Positions 1,349 through 8,564 of a stretch of 11,175 nt of DNA are shown here, in pieces (positions within the stretch are counted from its first letter, which is position 1; every line of letters begins with the position of its first letter). The translations under genes were made by a program, and so were the position numbers. This stretch comes from Deltaproteobacteria bacterium. GTDB lineage: Bacteria > Myxococcota > Myxococcia > Myxococcales > 40CM-4-68-19. The stretch lies in NCBI GenBank assembly GCA_005879095.1, contig VBLM01000175.1, forward strand, positions 1 through 11,175, given 5' to 3'. Below the pieces are notes generated by a model. That model did not search any database. It saw only the letters and a program-made list of their open reading frames with translations, and was not told the DNA's origin.

Positions 1349-2662
1349 CCTTCTTCCGTCGAGCTGTGCGAGCTTCCTTCTTGCGCCGCTGCTGCTCGAG
1401 AAAGCCTATCCTTTCCGGCTTCGGACGAGGTGGTTCCGGCGATGGCGGCGTGACGGCCGCCGGCGCGGGTTTGTGGCCTGCCGTATCCGCAAACCAGAGC
1501 ACACGGCGGACGACGAGCGTCGCGTACGCTCCGGGCGGCAGCGTGAAGGAGAGGTTCACTTTCAGCCGGCCGCGGTTGAGCTCGTCGCGGCGCGGCTCGT
1601 TCACGCGCAGCTTGCCCGGCACGACGAAGAGCGGCCGCTCCTCGTGCTTGAAGAAGAGCTGCGGCGTCTCCGGCACCCGCAGGTCCGAAAGCTGCAGACC
1701 CTGCGCCTTCAGCGCGCCGAGTGCGGCGGTCTCGATGCGCGGATAGTCGAACGTCGAATCCGGCGCAAGGAGCGGAAACGTCCGCGACCAGAGATCGTCA
1801 CGCAGCTCGCGCGACAGCGATCGCGGCATCGTCAGCGCGCCCGCCTGGTAGCGCATCCCGATCAGCTCGGCCCCCGGCACGCGCGCACCCAGGTACCGCT
1901 TCACGCCCTCGTTCCAGACGTAGCTCTGCAGCTCGAAGAGCGCCATCGCCCGCAGCCGCCGGTCGATGTGCATGAACGCGCCCTTGAAATCGCGCGGGTC
2001 CTCGCGCAGCCGCCGCAGCAACGGCGCATACCGCTTGCCGGCCTCGTGCGGGGCGCGCAGCTGCCATTCGCCCCAGTGATCGCGCCAGAAGGCCTTGACC
2101 TTCGCGTCGTCGCTCTTGTCCAACTCGCTCGGCGTGGCGAGAAATGCGCGCAGCGCGCCCTCCCAGTCGCCGCGCACGAGCTGCCGCGCGATGAACCCCT
2201 GGCCGTGCTTCAAAAAGCCGAACCGCTGCGAGTCGAAGTAGTTGACCACGCCGGCGCGCTGCACCTCGGCCACGCTCTCGCCCACCCGTCCGGCCTCGGC
2301 AGGCGAGAGGTCGCGCACCGTCACCTCGAATCGGTTGGCGGTGATGTTGGCGGACGTCAAAGGCTGGGCGACGCGCCCGATCAGCTTGAGCCGCAGATCG
2401 CCCGACTGCACGACATCCGTCGGACCGAGCGCGCCTTGTCCTTGAGCCCGCAGACGGACAAGTCGCGCCGTCGCACCGCGAATTCCTTCGAGAGCCGCTC
2501 CAGCGCCTGCAGCGTCGAAACCTTCTGCTTGTCCATCCGGTAGACCCAGACCGGACCCTCGGGGTCGTCCTCGAATCGGTACCCCTCGCGCACGACGAAG
2601 TCTTCGGGCCGCTGCTTGATCTTCACGCCGCGCCGCGTACCAGACGCGTCGGAGAGTGGCAA
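1341..2662 (-). pseudogene. truD: tRNA pseudouridine(13) synthase TruD, split by a 1-base frameshift
   Basis: TruD isomerises U13 of tRNA(Glu) to pseudouridine. The N-terminal part reads from a TTG at 2662 (a GTG at 2626 is an alternative): VKIKQRPEDFVVREGYRF, then CGLKDKARSV, with the catalytic aspartate D75 of the GLKD motif. The frame is then lost. The rest lies in the other frame: QSGDLRLK, LTSANITANRFEV, and the second family motif NYFDSQRFGF, ending at TGA 1343-1341. Adding one base near 2421/2422 (GTCCGACGG to GTCCAGACGG on the coding strand) restores ARSVQTDVVQSGDL and gives about 440 residues, longer than E. coli TruD (about 349). The C-terminus is a Pro-rich then Lys/Arg-rich tail. 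This may be a real mutation or a sequencing/assembly error. It is divergent from the cyclase gene. Confidence 0.88.
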
Positions 2663-2692
2663 GGAGCCTTACCCGCACCTACCCGCAAAATC

Positions 2693-2721
2693 TCGAAAAC
2701 ACTGCGCACGAGTGGTAAGAT
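2693..2721 (+). promoter_or_regulatory. Weak candidate sigma-70-like promoter for the cyclase gene
   Basis: In the 82-bp divergent gap between truD and the cyclase gene, TCGAAA (2693-2698, 4/6 match to TTGACA) and TAAGAT (2716-2721, 4/6 match to TATAAT) are 17 bp apart. The stretch is noticeably more A/T-rich than its surroundings. This is a by-eye candidate only. Confidence 0.25.
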
Positions 2722-2744
2722 CACACGGGAAGGACCCGGGGGAA

Positions 2745-4496
2745 ATGCCTGACGAACTGGATGACGAGCCGACCAACTACCGCCGATCGTCCATGGCCCC
2801 CTCGGCCTCGCGGTCAATACCGGCTTCGACTAACGTGACCCCCTTCGGCGCAGACGAGAAGACGCCCCCGCGCACAATGCCCCAGCAAGCCGCCGCGCCC
2901 GTCGCTCCGAGGATGATCCTCAAAGGACCCGCCGGCGCCGTCACCGAGTTTCCGCTGGGCGAGAACAACATCCTCGGCCGTAGCACCACCGCCTCCGTCC
3001 GCCTCGCCGACCGCGAGGTCTCGCGCAAGCACAGCCAGGTGGACAAGGAAGGCGACGACTACGTCCTGCGCGACCTCGGCTCGTCCAACGGCACCTTCCT
3101 CAACGGCAAGCGCATCTTCGGGCCGACCAAGCTGAAGGACGGCGACGAAGTCGTCATCGGCACCTCCAAGATGGAGTTCCGGCTCGGCAGCGCCGCCAAG
3201 CCGAAGAACGCCGAGATCGTCCACAGCGACGACGGCAAGGAAGAGCTGAAGGGCGTGGTCGCGCGCACCTCGGCCAAGGCGACCTTCGCGCCGGTCGAGC
3301 AGATCGGCGACGTCAACCAGCTCAAGCGCGACTACGAGCGGCTGCGCGTCGGCCACGAGTTCTCCAACTACGTCCGCCTCGAGCGCGACCTCAACGAGCT
3401 GCTCTCGCGGATTCTCCAGATCGCCTTCGACCTCATCCCCTGCGACAACGGCGTCATCCTGCTGCGCGACGCGCAGTCGCACGAGCTGGTGATCCAGGCG
3501 ATGCGGCAGCGCAAGCCGGGGCAGGGAAAGGTGCTCGTCTCCGACACGCTGCTCGGTCAGGTGCAGGCGACGAAGGAAGGCGTGCTGACTTCAGACGCCA
3601 TCGCCGACGATCGTTTCGCTTCGGCCCACTCGATCATCGCCCTCGGGGTTCGCAGCGCGATGGCGGTGCCGCTGCTCTCGACCGGCGGCGACGAGGTGAA
3701 GGGCATCATGTTCCTCGATTCGCGCGAGCGGATCGCGGCCTTCACCACCAAAGACCTGGAGGTCTTGAGCGCCATCGCCGCGCAGGCCTCGGTCGCGCTG
3801 GAGAACAGCGAATACGCGCGCGCGCTGGAGCATGAGGCCACGCAGCGGGCGCAGCTGGCGCGGTTCCTGTCTCCCGCGCTGGTCGAGCAGGCCGCGCGCG
3901 GCAGCATCGAGCTGTCGAAGGGCGGCGTGCTCACCGAGCTGACCATCCTGTTCAGCGACATCCGCGGATTTACTTCGATTTCCGAGAAGCTGCCCGCGCA
4001 GGAAGTGGTCAAGATGCTCAACGACTACTTCGAGCTGATGGTCGACATCCTCTTCGAGCACAACGGCATCCTCGACAAGTTCATCGGCGACGCGATCATG
4101 GGCCTCTGGGGCGCGCCGGTGAAACGGCCGGACGACGCGACCCAGGCAGTCCGCGCCGCGGTCAAGATGCAGGCGCGGCTCAAGGAGTGGAACGAGGACC
4201 GCGTCGCGGCCGGCAAGGTGCCGATCAAGATCGGCATCGGCTTGCATACGGGCCACGTCGTCGTCGGCAACATGGGCTCCAACCGCGCCCTCAGCTACAC
4301 CGCCATCGGCGACGGCGTGAACCTGGCCTCACGTCTGTGCGGCGTCGCCCGCGAGGACATGGTGGTGATCTCCGAAGACTGCGCTACGCGCGCCGGCAAG
4401 GAAAACTTCGTCCTCGAAGCCCTTCCTCCTGCCAAAGTCAAAAACCGCGAAGCCCCTGTCGAGATCTACCGGGTCGTTTCGGCTCTCGGCGAATAA
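2745..4496 (+). CDS. FHA-GAF-class III adenylate cyclase
   Basis: A 583-residue soluble signalling protein predicted to make cyclic AMP from ATP. Residues 1-55 look disordered and are Thr/Ser/Pro-rich. An FHA domain spans about 57-150 (GRS at 78-80, SRKH at 93-96, GSSNGTFLNG at 112-121), the phosphothreonine-binding fold. A GAF domain spans about 212-355. A class III cyclase domain spans about 395-550: metal-binding D405 (FSDIRGFT) and D449 (GDAIMGLWG), K445 (LDKFIGD), T519 at the base-recognition position (YTAIGDGVNLASR), and transition-state N526 and R530. K plus T favours ATP over GTP. No membrane segment is seen. I chose the ATG at 2745, preceded by GGGGGAA; the frame stays open upstream to 2616 but that part overlaps truD. 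The kinase downstream could supply the phosphothreonine signal. Confidence 0.93.
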   Translation: MPDELDDEPTNYRRSSMAPSASRSIPASTNVTPFGADEKTPPRTMPQQAAAPVAPRMILKGPAGAVTEFPLGENNILGRSTTASVRLADREVSRKHSQVDKEGDDYVLRDLGSSNGTFLNGKRIFGPTKLKDGDEVVIGTSKMEFRLGSAAKPKNAEIVHSDDGKEELKGVVARTSAKATFAPVEQIGDVNQLKRDYERLRVGHEFSNYVRLERDLNELLSRILQIAFDLIPCDNGVILLRDAQSHELVIQAMRQRKPGQGKVLVSDTLLGQVQATKEGVLTSDAIADDRFASAHSIIALGVRSAMAVPLLSTGGDEVKGIMFLDSRERIAAFTTKDLEVLSAIAAQASVALENSEYARALEHEATQRAQLARFLSPALVEQAARGSIELSKGGVLTELTILFSDIRGFTSISEKLPAQEVVKMLNDYFELMVDILFEHNGILDKFIGDAIMGLWGAPVKRPDDATQAVRAAVKMQARLKEWNEDRVAAGKVPIKIGIGLHTGHVVVGNMGSNRALSYTAIGDGVNLASRLCGVAREDMVVISEDCATRAGKENFVLEALPPAKVKNREAPVEIYRVVSALGE

Positions 4497-4524
4497 ATCT
4501 TCTTCGGTTCGGACTCGGGGTGAC

Positions 4525-4653
4525 GCCGGCCCCCCCAACCGTAGGGGGCCGCTCCTCAGACATGCAGAAATCGCCTGCGGCCCTTGCCCTGATGACGTTG
4601 GTAGGACGCGATTTCTGAACTCGTCGCTGCCCCCTACGGTTGGGGCGTCCGGC
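4525..4653. repeat. Left hairpin element of the inverted pair
   Basis: The stem arms are CCCCAACCGTAGGGGGC (4533-4549) against its exact reverse complement at 4629-4645 (17 bp). An inner stem pairs CAGAAATCGC (4565-4574) with GCGATTTCTG (4608-4617), 10 bp perfect. A short outer stem pairs GCCGG (4525-4529) with CCGGC (4649-4653). It lies 28 bp past the cyclase stop and could act as a processing, stability or attenuation structure on the cyclase-kinase transcript. That role is inferred. Confidence 0.75.
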
Positions 4654-4715
4654 TATCTTCCAACCCTGATTCTGCTTCGAAGCCAAATCAAAGTGGGAAG
4701 AGAGCCGGACGACCG

Positions 4716-4821
4716 GCGATTGGGGGGCGACCGACGAGTTCAGAAAGCGCCTCCGACCAACTGCACAAGGGCACGGACCCCAAGCGCTTTCTGCATGTCT
4801 GAGGAGGGCGCCCCCCAACGC
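4716..4821. repeat. Right hairpin element of the inverted pair
   Basis: GCGATTGGGGGGCG (4716-4729) pairs with CGCCCCCCAACGC (4809-4821) with one bulged A. The inner stem CAGAAAGCGC (4741-4750) pairs with GCGCTTTCTG (4784-4793), 10 bp perfect. Compared with the left copy, the inner stem has a T-A pair replaced by G-C, and the main stem has an A-T pair replaced by T-A. Pairing is therefore kept while sequence changes. Confidence 0.72.
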
Positions 4822-4909
4822 GGGCGGCCGGCGTCACCCCGAGTCCGAACCGAGCCTGAGTTGACGGAAGAAAAGTTGCGGGATCGATCGGCTGGGGCAA
4901 GCTGCCGGC

Positions 4910-6085
4910 ATGGCTGAGCCGACCGACGCCAAGTCGCAGCCGCCGCCCCAGAAAAAACGCGCTGTTCAGCGCTGCCCGAACTGCGACATCCGCTGCGACG
5001 TGAGCTGCTTCGTCGCCGGCGCCCTCGCCCGCTGCGGACACTGCAACGTCCGTTTCGAAGTCCAGCGCGAAGACTCGAAACCGCCGCCGCCTCCTGCTCC
5101 GAAACAGCCCGAGAGCCCGTTCCCCGCGCTCGACGGGTTCCTCGTCCACGAGCGCATCGGCCAGGGCGGCATGGGCGAGGTATTCCGTTGTACGCGCGTG
5201 TCGGACAACAAGCCGGTGGCGGTCAAGATCCTCACGCCGCAGATGGCGGCGGTGCCCGATTACGTCCGTAGATTCGGCCGCGAAGCCGCGGCGATGGCGC
5301 AGCTCGATCACCCCGGCATCGTCCGGCTGGTCGGCCGCGGCAAGGCGGGCGGGCACGTCTTCATCGCGATGGAGCTGATCGAGGGCACTTCGTTACGGCT
5401 GTGGGCGCACAAGAACCGCCCGACGGCGCGGCAGCTGGCGAAACTGCTGGCGCAGGTCGCGCACGCGCTGGCCTACGCGCACGCCCGAGCGGTCGTGCAC
5501 CGCGATCTCAAGCCGGACAACGTCCTGGTCACGGCCGACCTGCGCACCAAGGTGCTCGACTTCGGGCTCGCCGGCCTGCATTCCGAGGGCGCCGAGTGCC
5601 TGACCCAGAGCCACGTCGCGATGGGGACCGCCAACTACATGGCGCCCGAGCAGCGCAAGGATGCCAAGCGCGCCGATCACCGCGCCGACCTCTATTCGTT
5701 CGGGGTGATGGCGTACGAGCTGCTCACCGGCGAATTGCCGGTGGGGCGCTTTCCGCCGCCGACCAAGGTGGTTTCCGGACTCGACGCGCGCTGGGACGCG
5801 CTGATCGAGCGCTGCCTCGAGCTCGAGCCGGCGGCACGGCCGCACAGCGCGCTCGAGCTGGCACACGGACTCGAGGCCCTGGCGGGCGTCGCGACCCCGT
5901 TGGCCCTCGCTCCTCGCACGCGCCGGAAGGCGGGCAAGTCGGGGATCTGGTCGTGGCTCGGGATCGGCACGGCCGTCGCGGTGGTCATCGGCGTCGTCAG
6001 CCTGCGCGTGGCCCAGGACCACGGCTCGCACCGGCCGTCATTGACCGCAGCGCGCGCCGCACCGAAGAAGCCCTTGCGCCGCTAA
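4910..6085 (+). CDS. Ser/Thr protein kinase (Hanks/PknB type) with N-terminal zinc ribbon and C-terminal membrane anchor
   Basis: A 391-residue kinase. The N-terminus (20-51) has cysteine pairs CPNC (22-25) and CGHC (42-45), with further C29 and C33, consistent with a zinc ribbon of the MJ0042 kind. A Pro-rich linker leads to the kinase domain (about 78-325): glycine loop GQGGMGEV (84-91), ATP-binding K106, alpha-C E125, catalytic loop HRDLKPDN (197-204, D199), DFG (217-219) and APE (245-247). All core catalytic residues are present. One hydrophobic segment (about 346-366) leaves only about 25 residues beyond, so there is no PASTA or other outer sensor. TTGACG at 4861-4866, just past the inverted repeat, is a possible -35 box, without a good -10. 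The FHA cyclase upstream is a plausible partner. Confidence 0.93.
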   Translation: MAEPTDAKSQPPPQKKRAVQRCPNCDIRCDVSCFVAGALARCGHCNVRFEVQREDSKPPPPPAPKQPESPFPALDGFLVHERIGQGGMGEVFRCTRVSDNKPVAVKILTPQMAAVPDYVRRFGREAAAMAQLDHPGIVRLVGRGKAGGHVFIAMELIEGTSLRLWAHKNRPTARQLAKLLAQVAHALAYAHARAVVHRDLKPDNVLVTADLRTKVLDFGLAGLHSEGAECLTQSHVAMGTANYMAPEQRKDAKRADHRADLYSFGVMAYELLTGELPVGRFPPPTKVVSGLDARWDALIERCLELEPAARPHSALELAHGLEALAGVATPLALAPRTRRKAGKSGIWSWLGIGTAVAVVIGVVSLRVAQDHGSHRPSLTAARAAPKKPLRR

Positions 6086-6086
6086 G

Positions 6087-6178
6087 AGCAAAATCACACC
6101 ACAGAGACACAGAGATCACAGAGGCTTTTTGTAAGAAGCTTCTCTGTGCCCTCCGTGCCTCTGTGGTGAGATTTTGCT
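6087..6178. terminator. Palindromic repeat (A/T version) between convergent genes, likely bidirectional terminator
   Basis: The left arm starts AGCAAAATCACACCACAGAG (6087-6106). The right arm is its reverse complement with one mismatch (6159-6178). Inside are repeated ACAGAG units on the left and CTCTGTG/CTCCGTG/CTCTGTGG on the right. The element starts 1 bp after the kinase stop and ends 7 bp before the stop of the small minus-strand gene. Its position and dyad suggest termination from both sides. It resembles the dispersed CACAGAG-type palindromes found in many environmental bacterial genomes. Confidence 0.75.
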
Positions 6179-6185
6179 TTTGTTT

Positions 6186-7710: not shown

Positions 7711-7980
7711 ATGGCAGAAGCGCGCAGCAACACGCAGCTCCCGATCGGCGGGGTCGCGGCGAAGAGCGTGATCGAAGAAGAGATCGAGGCCTTCCAGCAA
7801 GGGATCGAGATCGGCCGCAAGTACGCCGACGTCGCCCGCCGCAAGGTGGCGGCGTGGGCCGAGGAGCACCCGGGCCAGCTCATCCTGGCCGGCCTCGCCG
7901 GCGGCTTCCTCCTCGGCAAGCTGCTCTTCGGCAGGCGTCGCAATCGGATCAATCTCGCGGACCTGAATCTCGAGGAATAA
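7711..7980 (+). CDS. YqjD/ElaB (DUF883)-like inner membrane protein (89 aa)
   Basis: An 89-residue protein with an N-terminal charged helix (VIEEEIEAFQQGIEIGRKYA) and a C-terminal hydrophobic, glycine-rich segment (HPGQLILAGLAGGFLLGKLLF, about 53-73), followed by basic RRRNR and the acidic end LNLEE. This tail-anchor layout matches the YqjD/ElaB family; E. coli YqjD is an inner-membrane protein reported to bind ribosomes in stationary phase. It starts 2 bp after the DUF3618-like stop, so the pair is probably co-translated. Its TAA stop lies inside the arm of the 7978-8093 palindrome. The assignment to DUF883 is by layout; sequence identity is not strong by eye. Confidence 0.7.
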   Translation: MAEARSNTQLPIGGVAAKSVIEEEIEAFQQGIEIGRKYADVARRKVAAWAEEHPGQLILAGLAGGFLLGKLLFGRRRNRINLADLNLEE

Positions 7981-8093
7981 GGCTTCACGCGCACCGCGGA
8001 GCCGCGGAGGACGCGGAGGACGCGGAGGTTTTTGGTTTTTAAAAAAAAAGATCTCCGCGCTCTCCGCGCCTTCGCGGTGCGCTTGAAGCCTTA
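7978..8093. terminator. Palindromic repeat (G/C version) between convergent genes, carrying both stop codons
   Basis: The left arm begins TAAGGCTTCACGCGCACCGC at 7978 and the right arm is its reverse complement with one mismatch, ending at 8093. Each outer TAA is the stop codon of the gene on that side. Inside are GCGGAG units on the left and CTCCGCG units on the right, with an A/T-rich centre (GGTTTTTGGTTTTTAAAAAAAAAG). A strong hairpin flanked by T/A runs and placed between two gene ends suggests a bidirectional terminator. Confidence 0.8.
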
Positions 8094-8564
8094 TCGTGCG
8101 CGGGCGGTCGGGGGGACCATCGGTTCGGCGCGGGCGGACGGGGAGAGGCCGACTCCGTGCCGGTAGACTAGCGCGCCGCCGAGAGCCGTTTCGACCGTCA
8201 GGATGACCGCGCCGGAAAAGGCCGCCGCGAGATAGATGGTCCGCGCCTTCAGCGGCAGCGGCAGCTTCGACGCAACGCGCCAGACGGCGACCGGCAGCCA
8301 CACCAGCACCATCACGATCCCGAGCGCCTTGTGCAGATGCAGCAGCGCCTCTCCGGCCGCGCTATGCGGTCCGAGCGACGCTTCCGCGCCGAGCCCGGTG
8401 ATGAACGACATCACCGCGGCGATGGTTCCGGTCACGGTCATCCACCGGCCCGCGAAGAGCAGCGGCTCGCGCCGGAGCACCAGTCCGAGCACGTCGCAAA
8501 TCGGGGCCGTCAGCAGTAGCCCCACCGCGAAGTGGAGCACGAACGGATGGAGCTCGCCGCTCAC
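8091..8564 (-). CDS. DUF2231-like four-helix membrane protein (157 aa)
   Basis: A 157-residue membrane protein beginning MSGELHPFVLHFAVGLLLTA. The HP..VHF-type start, followed by four hydrophobic segments (about 6-28, 39-60, 77-97, 107-130), is the pattern of DUF2231. Histidines H6, H11, H66, H76 and H78 could be ligands, but no cofactor can be claimed from sequence. The start is the GTG at 8564, 9 bp after the queF stop, giving a likely co-transcribed minus-strand unit. The C-terminal tail (PSARAEPMVPPTARAR) is short and polar. The stop TAA lies in the adjoining palindrome. Confidence 0.72.
   Translation of the reverse strand: MSGELHPFVLHFAVGLLLTAPICDVLGLVLRREPLLFAGRWMTVTGTIAAVMSFITGLGAEASLGPHSAAGEALLHLHKALGIVMVLVWLPVAVWRVASKLPLPLKARTIYLAAAFSGAVILTVETALGGALVYRHGVGLSPSARAEPMVPPTARAR

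Follow-up and report, generated by a model that had tools for sequence, protein, structure and literature searches.

What kind of element is a long palindrome standing between a cyclase gene and a protein kinase gene, and by which of its parts would it be recognized? The question is raised by positions 4504–4853 of the window (the whole 11,175-nt stretch of DNA analyzed here), which form a single long imperfect palindrome of about 350 bp between the two genes, its exact ends carrying an uncertainty of a few bases (Table 1). A first-pass annotation had described an inverted pair of homologous but diverged hairpins, and this description is borne out: the arms 4544–4634 and 4724–4814 are inverted copies over 91 nt with 80% identity, and the region 4497–4862 folds as DNA with −152.1 kcal/mol versus −70.9 ± 3.9 in 100 shuffles (z −21.0), the RNA fold of the same region reaching z −20.2 against shuffles. 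The outer ends, proposed as near-perfect terminal repeats of 27 bp, are indeed inverted and 97% complementary, but their length is 32 nt. Both compensated changes are in the sequence as claimed, A-T to T-A in the main stem and T-A to G-C in the inner stem; in the right copy, the stem as quoted ends with G·T and not with G-C. Our leaning, held with moderate confidence, is that this is a non-autonomous palindromic mobile element (MITE-like), in which two inverted hairpin units surround a central palindrome, inserted behind the cyclase stop codon and read through its loop in folded single-stranded DNA.

Table 1. Coordinates of the palindromic element, its parts and the neighboring genes in the window.
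Feature	Coordinates	Strand	Basis
FHA-GAF-adenylate/guanylate cyclase protein gene	2616..4496	+	Pfam PF00498, PF01590, PF00211; start codon uncertain
Whole palindromic element	4504..4853	.	end repeats common to copies on C187, C358, C157; missing in same spacer of six sister genomes
Left terminal inverted repeat	4504..4535	+	32 nt, 97% complementary to 4822-4853
Hairpin unit 1 (strand A on +)	4525..4653	+	outer stem 4525-4552/4626-4653, 89%
Unit 1 conserved internal loop, 5′ side CTCAGACATG	4555..4564	+	exact-loop search
Unit 1 inner stem, 5′ side CAGAAATCGC	4565..4574	+	sequence, covariation count
Unit 1 inner stem, 3′ side GCGATTTCTG	4608..4617	+	sequence, covariation count
Unit 1 conserved internal loop, 3′ side AACTCG	4618..4623	+	exact-loop search
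Central palindrome separating both units	4643..4714	.	inverted-repeat search of window
Hairpin unit 2 (strand A on −)	4713..4825	-	exact-loop search
Unit 2 conserved loop, AACTCG on −	4735..4740	-	exact-loop search
Unit 2 inner stem, CAGAAAGCGC on +, compensated versus unit 1	4741..4750	-	sequence, covariation count
Unit 2 inner stem, GCGCTTTCTG on +	4784..4793	-	sequence, covariation count
Unit 2 conserved loop, CTCAGACATG on −	4794..4803	-	exact-loop search
Right terminal inverted repeat	4822..4853	-	partner of 4504-4535; end sequence recurs in other copies
Protein kinase gene	4910..6085	+	Pfam PF00069

The element starts 7 nt past the stop codon of the cyclase gene. Adjacency of the cyclase and kinase genes is kept in seven of seven genomes of the genus, and the spacer up to the aligned kinase start measures 413 nt in the window genome (G000) and 190, 205, 150, 170, 99, and 27 nt in the sister genomes G002, G003, G006, G004, G005, and G001, respectively (the kinase match begins at residue 2 in G005 and at residue 7 in G001). 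No hairpin unit is found in the syntenic spacer of any of the six sister genomes; the element is an insertion, private to the window genome among the seven. The suggestion that it sets the relative expression of cyclase and kinase is not supported, because of this private nature and because the promoter-like TTGACGGAAGAAAA at 4861, located 5′ of the kinase gene and common to the window genome, G002, and G003, lies outside the element. TTGACGGAAGAAAA itself is a candidate kinase promoter. In G002, G003, and G004/G006, other palindromic stretches occupy this spacer (L400, L401, L402, and L403; seen by eye), which looks like a possible recurrent landing place for unrelated palindromes. Two more imperfect palindromes with arms of about 40 bp, CCACAGAGACACAGAG-like and CGCGGAGCCGCGGAGG-like, stand at 6084–6181 and 7977–8094 of the window and apparently belong to other repeat families.

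Further copies, for which a blastn search had been proposed, are found on four further contigs of the window genome (an assembly of 3.78 Mb on 791 contigs, 62% complete) and in other genomes, and therefore a chimera or an assembly artefact is unlikely. The identities on the other contigs are 97% (C187), 91% (C358), and 77–82%, the matches including two units on C254 and one end on C157; seven exact-loop units, the two of the window included, are distributed over four contigs of this genome. The end sequence CGGTTCGGACTCGG recurs with 0–1 mismatches at the ends of other copies, while matches with two mismatches barely exceed the reversed control, and the finding of common terminal inverted repeats applies to copies of the window's own family. 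When the copies were compared by eye, no target-site duplication was recognized, the exact ends being uncertain, and the open frames beside the copies compared contain no recurring transposase gene. Weak blastn matches in G016, G042, G044, and G047 are end-repeat fragments without the loop, and the whole element has no match in plasmids (megablast) or phages (blastn). The first-pass annotation could name no known family, and this agrees with the window element and 18 loci having no Rfam match above the gathering score, apart from tRNAs elsewhere in the loci; relaxed thresholds gave sub-threshold miRNA-like matches and one viral-element match, which were rejected.

The units of G000, G002, and G007 are built in the order outer stem, CTCARACATG, inner stem, terminal loop, inner stem, AACTCG, and outer stem. 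Covariation was counted in 23 of the 25 exact-loop units of these genomes, two G007 units with too short flanks being omitted. Paired cells amount to 84.4% versus 67.7% in shuffles. As the rows are related, the shuffle fractions are not probabilities: 17 of 24 pairs change on both sides (reached by 4 of 500 shuffles), double-change cells number 99 versus 38.4 ± 4.3 (reached by none of 500), and further pair types are unexceptional (34 versus 31.0; 58 of 500). The covariation score is 0.432, versus 0.156 ± 0.016 in shuffles and 0.10–0.18 with the partners slid. A 20-unit subset from which three G002 units are absent gives 16 of 24 pairs and 85 double-change cells versus 35.4. Stems of different families are not in the same register (alignment A1). 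In the G002 unit on C41 (L028), the outer arms come from two different families and do not pair, which counts against the mobile-element reading. Double changes that keep pairing had been taken to suggest a selected fold; they do exceed both column shuffles and slid controls, but they are no proof of selection, because template switching during replication can create and repair stems, according to one report (PMC8794818).

The feature kept between families is a two-strand internal loop, CTCARACATG/AACTCG, whose strand A is 5′-CTCARACATG-3′ plus 5′-AACTCG-3′ and strand B 5′-CGAGTT-3′ plus 5′-CATGTYTGAG-3′. The stems vary freely, and recognition appears to depend on the loop and not on the stem. 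The pattern CTCARACATGN{40,70}AACTCG is present in 11 of the 195 genomes searched in the window's phylum: G000, G002, and G007 with 7, 11, and 7 matches, all of one family, and eight others with one match each, which corresponds to background (about 10–12 hits in the reversed control). Real exact-loop hairpins thus reside in 3 of 195 genomes of this phylum, and they recur with unrelated stems in a second phylum, at up to 38 copies per genome. Of 368 genomes in this second phylum, that of G201, 38 contain the pattern and 18 the nested hairpin, namely, 11 genomes plus seven more (G222, G389, G390, G403, G443, G454, and G455). The outer arms of these seven pair with local scores of 48–65 (one unit checked per genome), whereas unrelated arms, compared along a shorter stretch, had a median of 9; inspection by eye suggests chance matches in the remaining 20 genomes, and 30 genomes match the reversed control. 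Exact-loop matches in G195 to G205 number 32, 38, 4, 12, 13, 4, 9, 1, 1, 2, and 1 with one control hit in total, and the second G204 match is no hairpin by eye. G195–G203 and G205 presumably belong to Bdellovibrionota, and G002 and G007 to Myxococcales and Deltaproteobacteria assemblies.

There are further places where the loop was looked for. A contig scan with CTCARACATGCN{38,62}GAACTCGT returned at least 114 stretches; among the matches listed, many are chance and others are nested hairpins with unrelated stems, the ungapped inner-pair score being low also for true bulged hairpins. In viral contigs the loop pattern occurs in eight stretches, none with a passing stem test, and a third viral pattern found nothing. 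As a literature string, CTCAAACATG alone gave publications unrelated by title among the matches listed, and a query for Bdellovibrio palindromes gave nothing on the element among the matches listed. G196 has 67 blastn matches, some of which are fragments or the reverse strand of one copy and some of which lie in head-to-tail arrays of about 128 nt. On C21, C126, and C137 of this genome (L422, L435, and L451), the hairpin unit forms head-to-tail tandem arrays with a period of about 127–129 nt. At L078, L108, and L115, a second repeat (CCGTCATYCC..GGGGATC/GGGAATC-like) lies as a nested insertion within the terminal loop of some hairpins.

Within single genomes, the mean column conservation of the loop is 0.92 in G196 (60 units; outer arms 0.74 and 0.86, inner part 0.90), 0.96 in G195 (27 units; 0.90, 0.88, and 0.88), and 0.96 in G199 (15 units; 0.78, 0.75, and 0.87), values that favor the loop where loci were chosen by the loop pattern (at least 20 of 49 in G196, at least 20 of 28 in G195, and 12 of 12 in G199). 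In G196, 25 of 60 units have the exact loop. In the second phylum, the loop pattern itself yielded most rows, so that loop identity there is partly due to selection, a point against the mobile-element reading. The inner part is nearly as conserved as the loop within a genome; between families, it is the loop that survives. An arm-swap test was made with stem positions 11–36 of 95 of the 105 collected units (the rest have short flanks, are duplicates, or come from genomes with fewer than three units), and 57 of these 95 score strictly best with their own partner arm. In G201 nine of nine do so, with a median self score of 32 versus 10 for other copies and 9 between genomes; therefore, each G201 copy is a private palindromic outer stem around a common core. 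Private stems are unexpected if a fixed unit is copied together with its stems, and this too counts against the mobile-element reading. For one G201 copy, both convergent neighbors are kept in G210 (67% identity for one flanking protein and 46% for the second), and the equivalent G210 spacer is short, without such a palindrome.

Furthermore, the two loop strands occur in either order, the second order being found at hairpin tips in other bacteria. Two queries of this order (TGTTTGAG-CGNAG-CGAGTT) match 5 and 6 plasmid records, versus 1 and 0 for reversed controls, with E values from 0.007 to 4 that fall below 0.05 in Butyrivibrio only. Seven of eight plasmid records were examined (the eighth is from E. 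faecalis), with two of three Butyrivibrio places, and the motif is in a hairpin in six of the seven records, from Butyrivibrio, Variovorax, Parabacteroides, Ilyobacter, and one cassette region common to Aeromonas and Pseudomonas putida plasmids; in the Enterococcus italicus plasmid the motif is not in a hairpin. One Butyrivibrio copy has a plain tip and one is a branched palindrome. In Variovorax and Parabacteroides, as in the window, two tips face each other in inverted order and the stems are compensated, the distances between tips being about 410 and 364 bp, respectively. The pattern TGTYTGAGCN{3,33}GCGAGTT occurs in 16 of 193 genomes of the window's phylum; its matches look like background except for three, in G079 and G055, which clearly form nested hairpins and differ in their stems. 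Near position 1501 of L364 and L366, a near-identical tip ATGTTTGAGCGCAGCGAGT is the apex of a hairpin between two resistance-gene-carrying cassettes. The Parabacteroides and Ilyobacter loci (L363 and L365) have in common CCTTGA.. TTTTGGTTACTTTT, next to and downstream of the tip hairpin, which suggests a larger common element. In viral contigs, the second order gave 60 stretches, several of which repeat one sequence; none shows a hairpin by eye, and their ungapped closing pairs never exceed 7 of 10; phages gave one match, inside a microvirus gene, and E. coli genomes none. Six literal forms of this order were not found in the literature searched, outside which most subscription papers lie. 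The tip of the second order has GCGAAGC or GCGCAGC, like the d(GCGNAGC) DNA mini-hairpin, which is stable; unlike this mini-hairpin, the core in the window form is an internal loop, not a tip.

The units are dispersed and inserted, their helices covary, and the loop is kept across unrelated helices in two phyla. If they are mobile elements of the favored type, a unit would fold when the DNA becomes single-stranded, and a trans-acting enzyme would read the folded loop and then copy or move the element. The helix sequence would be free, only its pairing being of importance, and template switching during replication probably helps to keep the arms complementary. The strand B loop could form tandem G·A pairs; tandem 5′-YGAR-3′ steps could form sheared G·A pairs in DNA. 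In four copy-rich genomes, the putative enzyme is, judging from the gene content, apparently not a Y1/RAYT protein.

The first-pass annotation had left the choice between a structured RNA and a hairpin-recognized mobile element; the dispersed, inserted unit fits the latter, and a strand-specific RNA is not favored. In the former case, the unit would be a protein-bound hairpin at gene 3′ ends, acting in termination, stability, or processing and spread by copying. Indeed, the placement is nearly always intergenic. In the second phylum, 86 of 96 distinct units could be placed (10 have no frame on one side), of which 38 are between tandem, 31 between convergent, and 11 between divergent genes and 6 are far from genes; frames of at least 120 aa hold none of the 86, and one of the 96 is in a 109-aa frame. 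In a comparison that also took in G000, G002, and G007 loci, open frames of 73–353 aa enclose several units and an 815-aa frame encloses the G002 unit L040, but frames over units in this G+C-rich DNA may be spurious. The excess of convergent over divergent spacers (31:11) would also fit a 3′-end function and counts against the mobile-element reading; eight of nine placed G201 units are between convergent genes, and the terminal hairpin of L052 and L060 resembles, by eye, a two-way intrinsic terminator. However, the orientation relative to tandem genes is random (20:18). A B-strand bias of 15:5, from a hand count, vanished with more loci (18:20). Strand A has no bias toward G·U either: outer-stem mismatches are 43 G·T versus 62 A·C (p 0.08), inner-stem ones 15 versus 17, and a looser count gives 89 versus 110, in a weak and unvalidated test in which 52 terminator-like control hairpins were also without bias (13:10). 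Together with the absence of an Rfam match and an insertion private to the window genome, these results make the structured RNA unlikely, though it is the strongest of the rivals.

Alternatively, palindromes and covariation could be made and kept by replication template switching, with no selection on the fold. This process can create or repair stems (PMC8794818), and it can explain the private palindromic arms of each G201 copy and the symmetric mismatches, G·T and A·C being about equal. It does not explain the kept unpaired loop: arm repair should erase unpaired bases, yet the loop is identical across the two phyla, whichever of its strands comes first. Template switching is likely a contributor and not the whole cause; as the whole cause it is improbable.

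Mobilization as a REPIN/BIME-like element by a RAYT (Y1) transposase is more doubtful still. The two inverted hairpins per element and their intergenic spread are REPIN-like, and Y1_Tnp matches exist in G000 (13), G002 (21), G007 (15), and G201 (2); nevertheless, G195, G196, G198, and G199, with 32, 38, 12, and 13 exact-loop copies, have none in their small and possibly incomplete assemblies. The core is absent from 38 Y1 loci of G000, G001, G002, G005, G007, and G201, apart from one chance-like match in L032, and GTAG stands 25–60 nt from the loop in only 5 of 105 units on strand A and 1 of 105 on strand B. The units also measure 110–130 nt, versus 20–40 bp for the REPs described in PMC3733652. 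G001 has 13 Y1_Tnp (RAYT/IS200-type) matches, and its fetched loci are without the core.

A relic or relative of an integron attC site is hardly credible: attC sites, which are folded single-strand hairpins with unpaired bases and a free stem sequence, embody the same concept, and the near-identical tip of L364 and L366 stands at a hairpin apex between gene cassettes, but facing R boxes (RYYYAAC/GTTRRRY) occur in 0 of 105 units.

Among known systems, ERIC/RU-type and other palindromic MITEs are similar to the mobile element proposed here in being intergenic palindromes of about 100–350 bp with dispersed copies (RU-1 is reportedly 127 bp and RU-2 168 bp), but here one internal loop is found in stem-unrelated families across phyla. 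REPINs and BIMEs are likewise short, non-autonomous intergenic elements with two inverted hairpins, and in E. coli REPs conserved in-stem mismatches matter for recognition, according to PMC8266576. Unlike them, the window-type units are much longer, their stems are not conserved between families, GTAG is not common to them, nor is any common tag seen by eye, and no RAYT was found in four copy-rich genomes. A wider proposal, which we offer only tentatively, is that of a new superfamily of bacterial mobile hairpins that would be defined by the internal loop (5′-CGAGTT / 5′-TGTYTGAG) and not by stems or ends, with either helix closing and both strand orders. It would spread over Myxococcota, Bdellovibrionota, Pseudomonadota, Bacteroidota, Bacillota, and Fusobacteriota, its folded DNA being recognized by an enzyme of a new type, through which each insertion site would acquire palindromic arms of its own.

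Sequence is the usual means of tracing repeat families, and here similarity searches see each family as separate; the small loop alone ties together elements of distant phyla whose stems are unrelated. The private arms of G201 offer a natural test of how long palindromes originate, and of why compensated changes need not mean selection on RNA. Should recognition indeed occur at the loop, a new DNA-hairpin-handling activity would be indicated.
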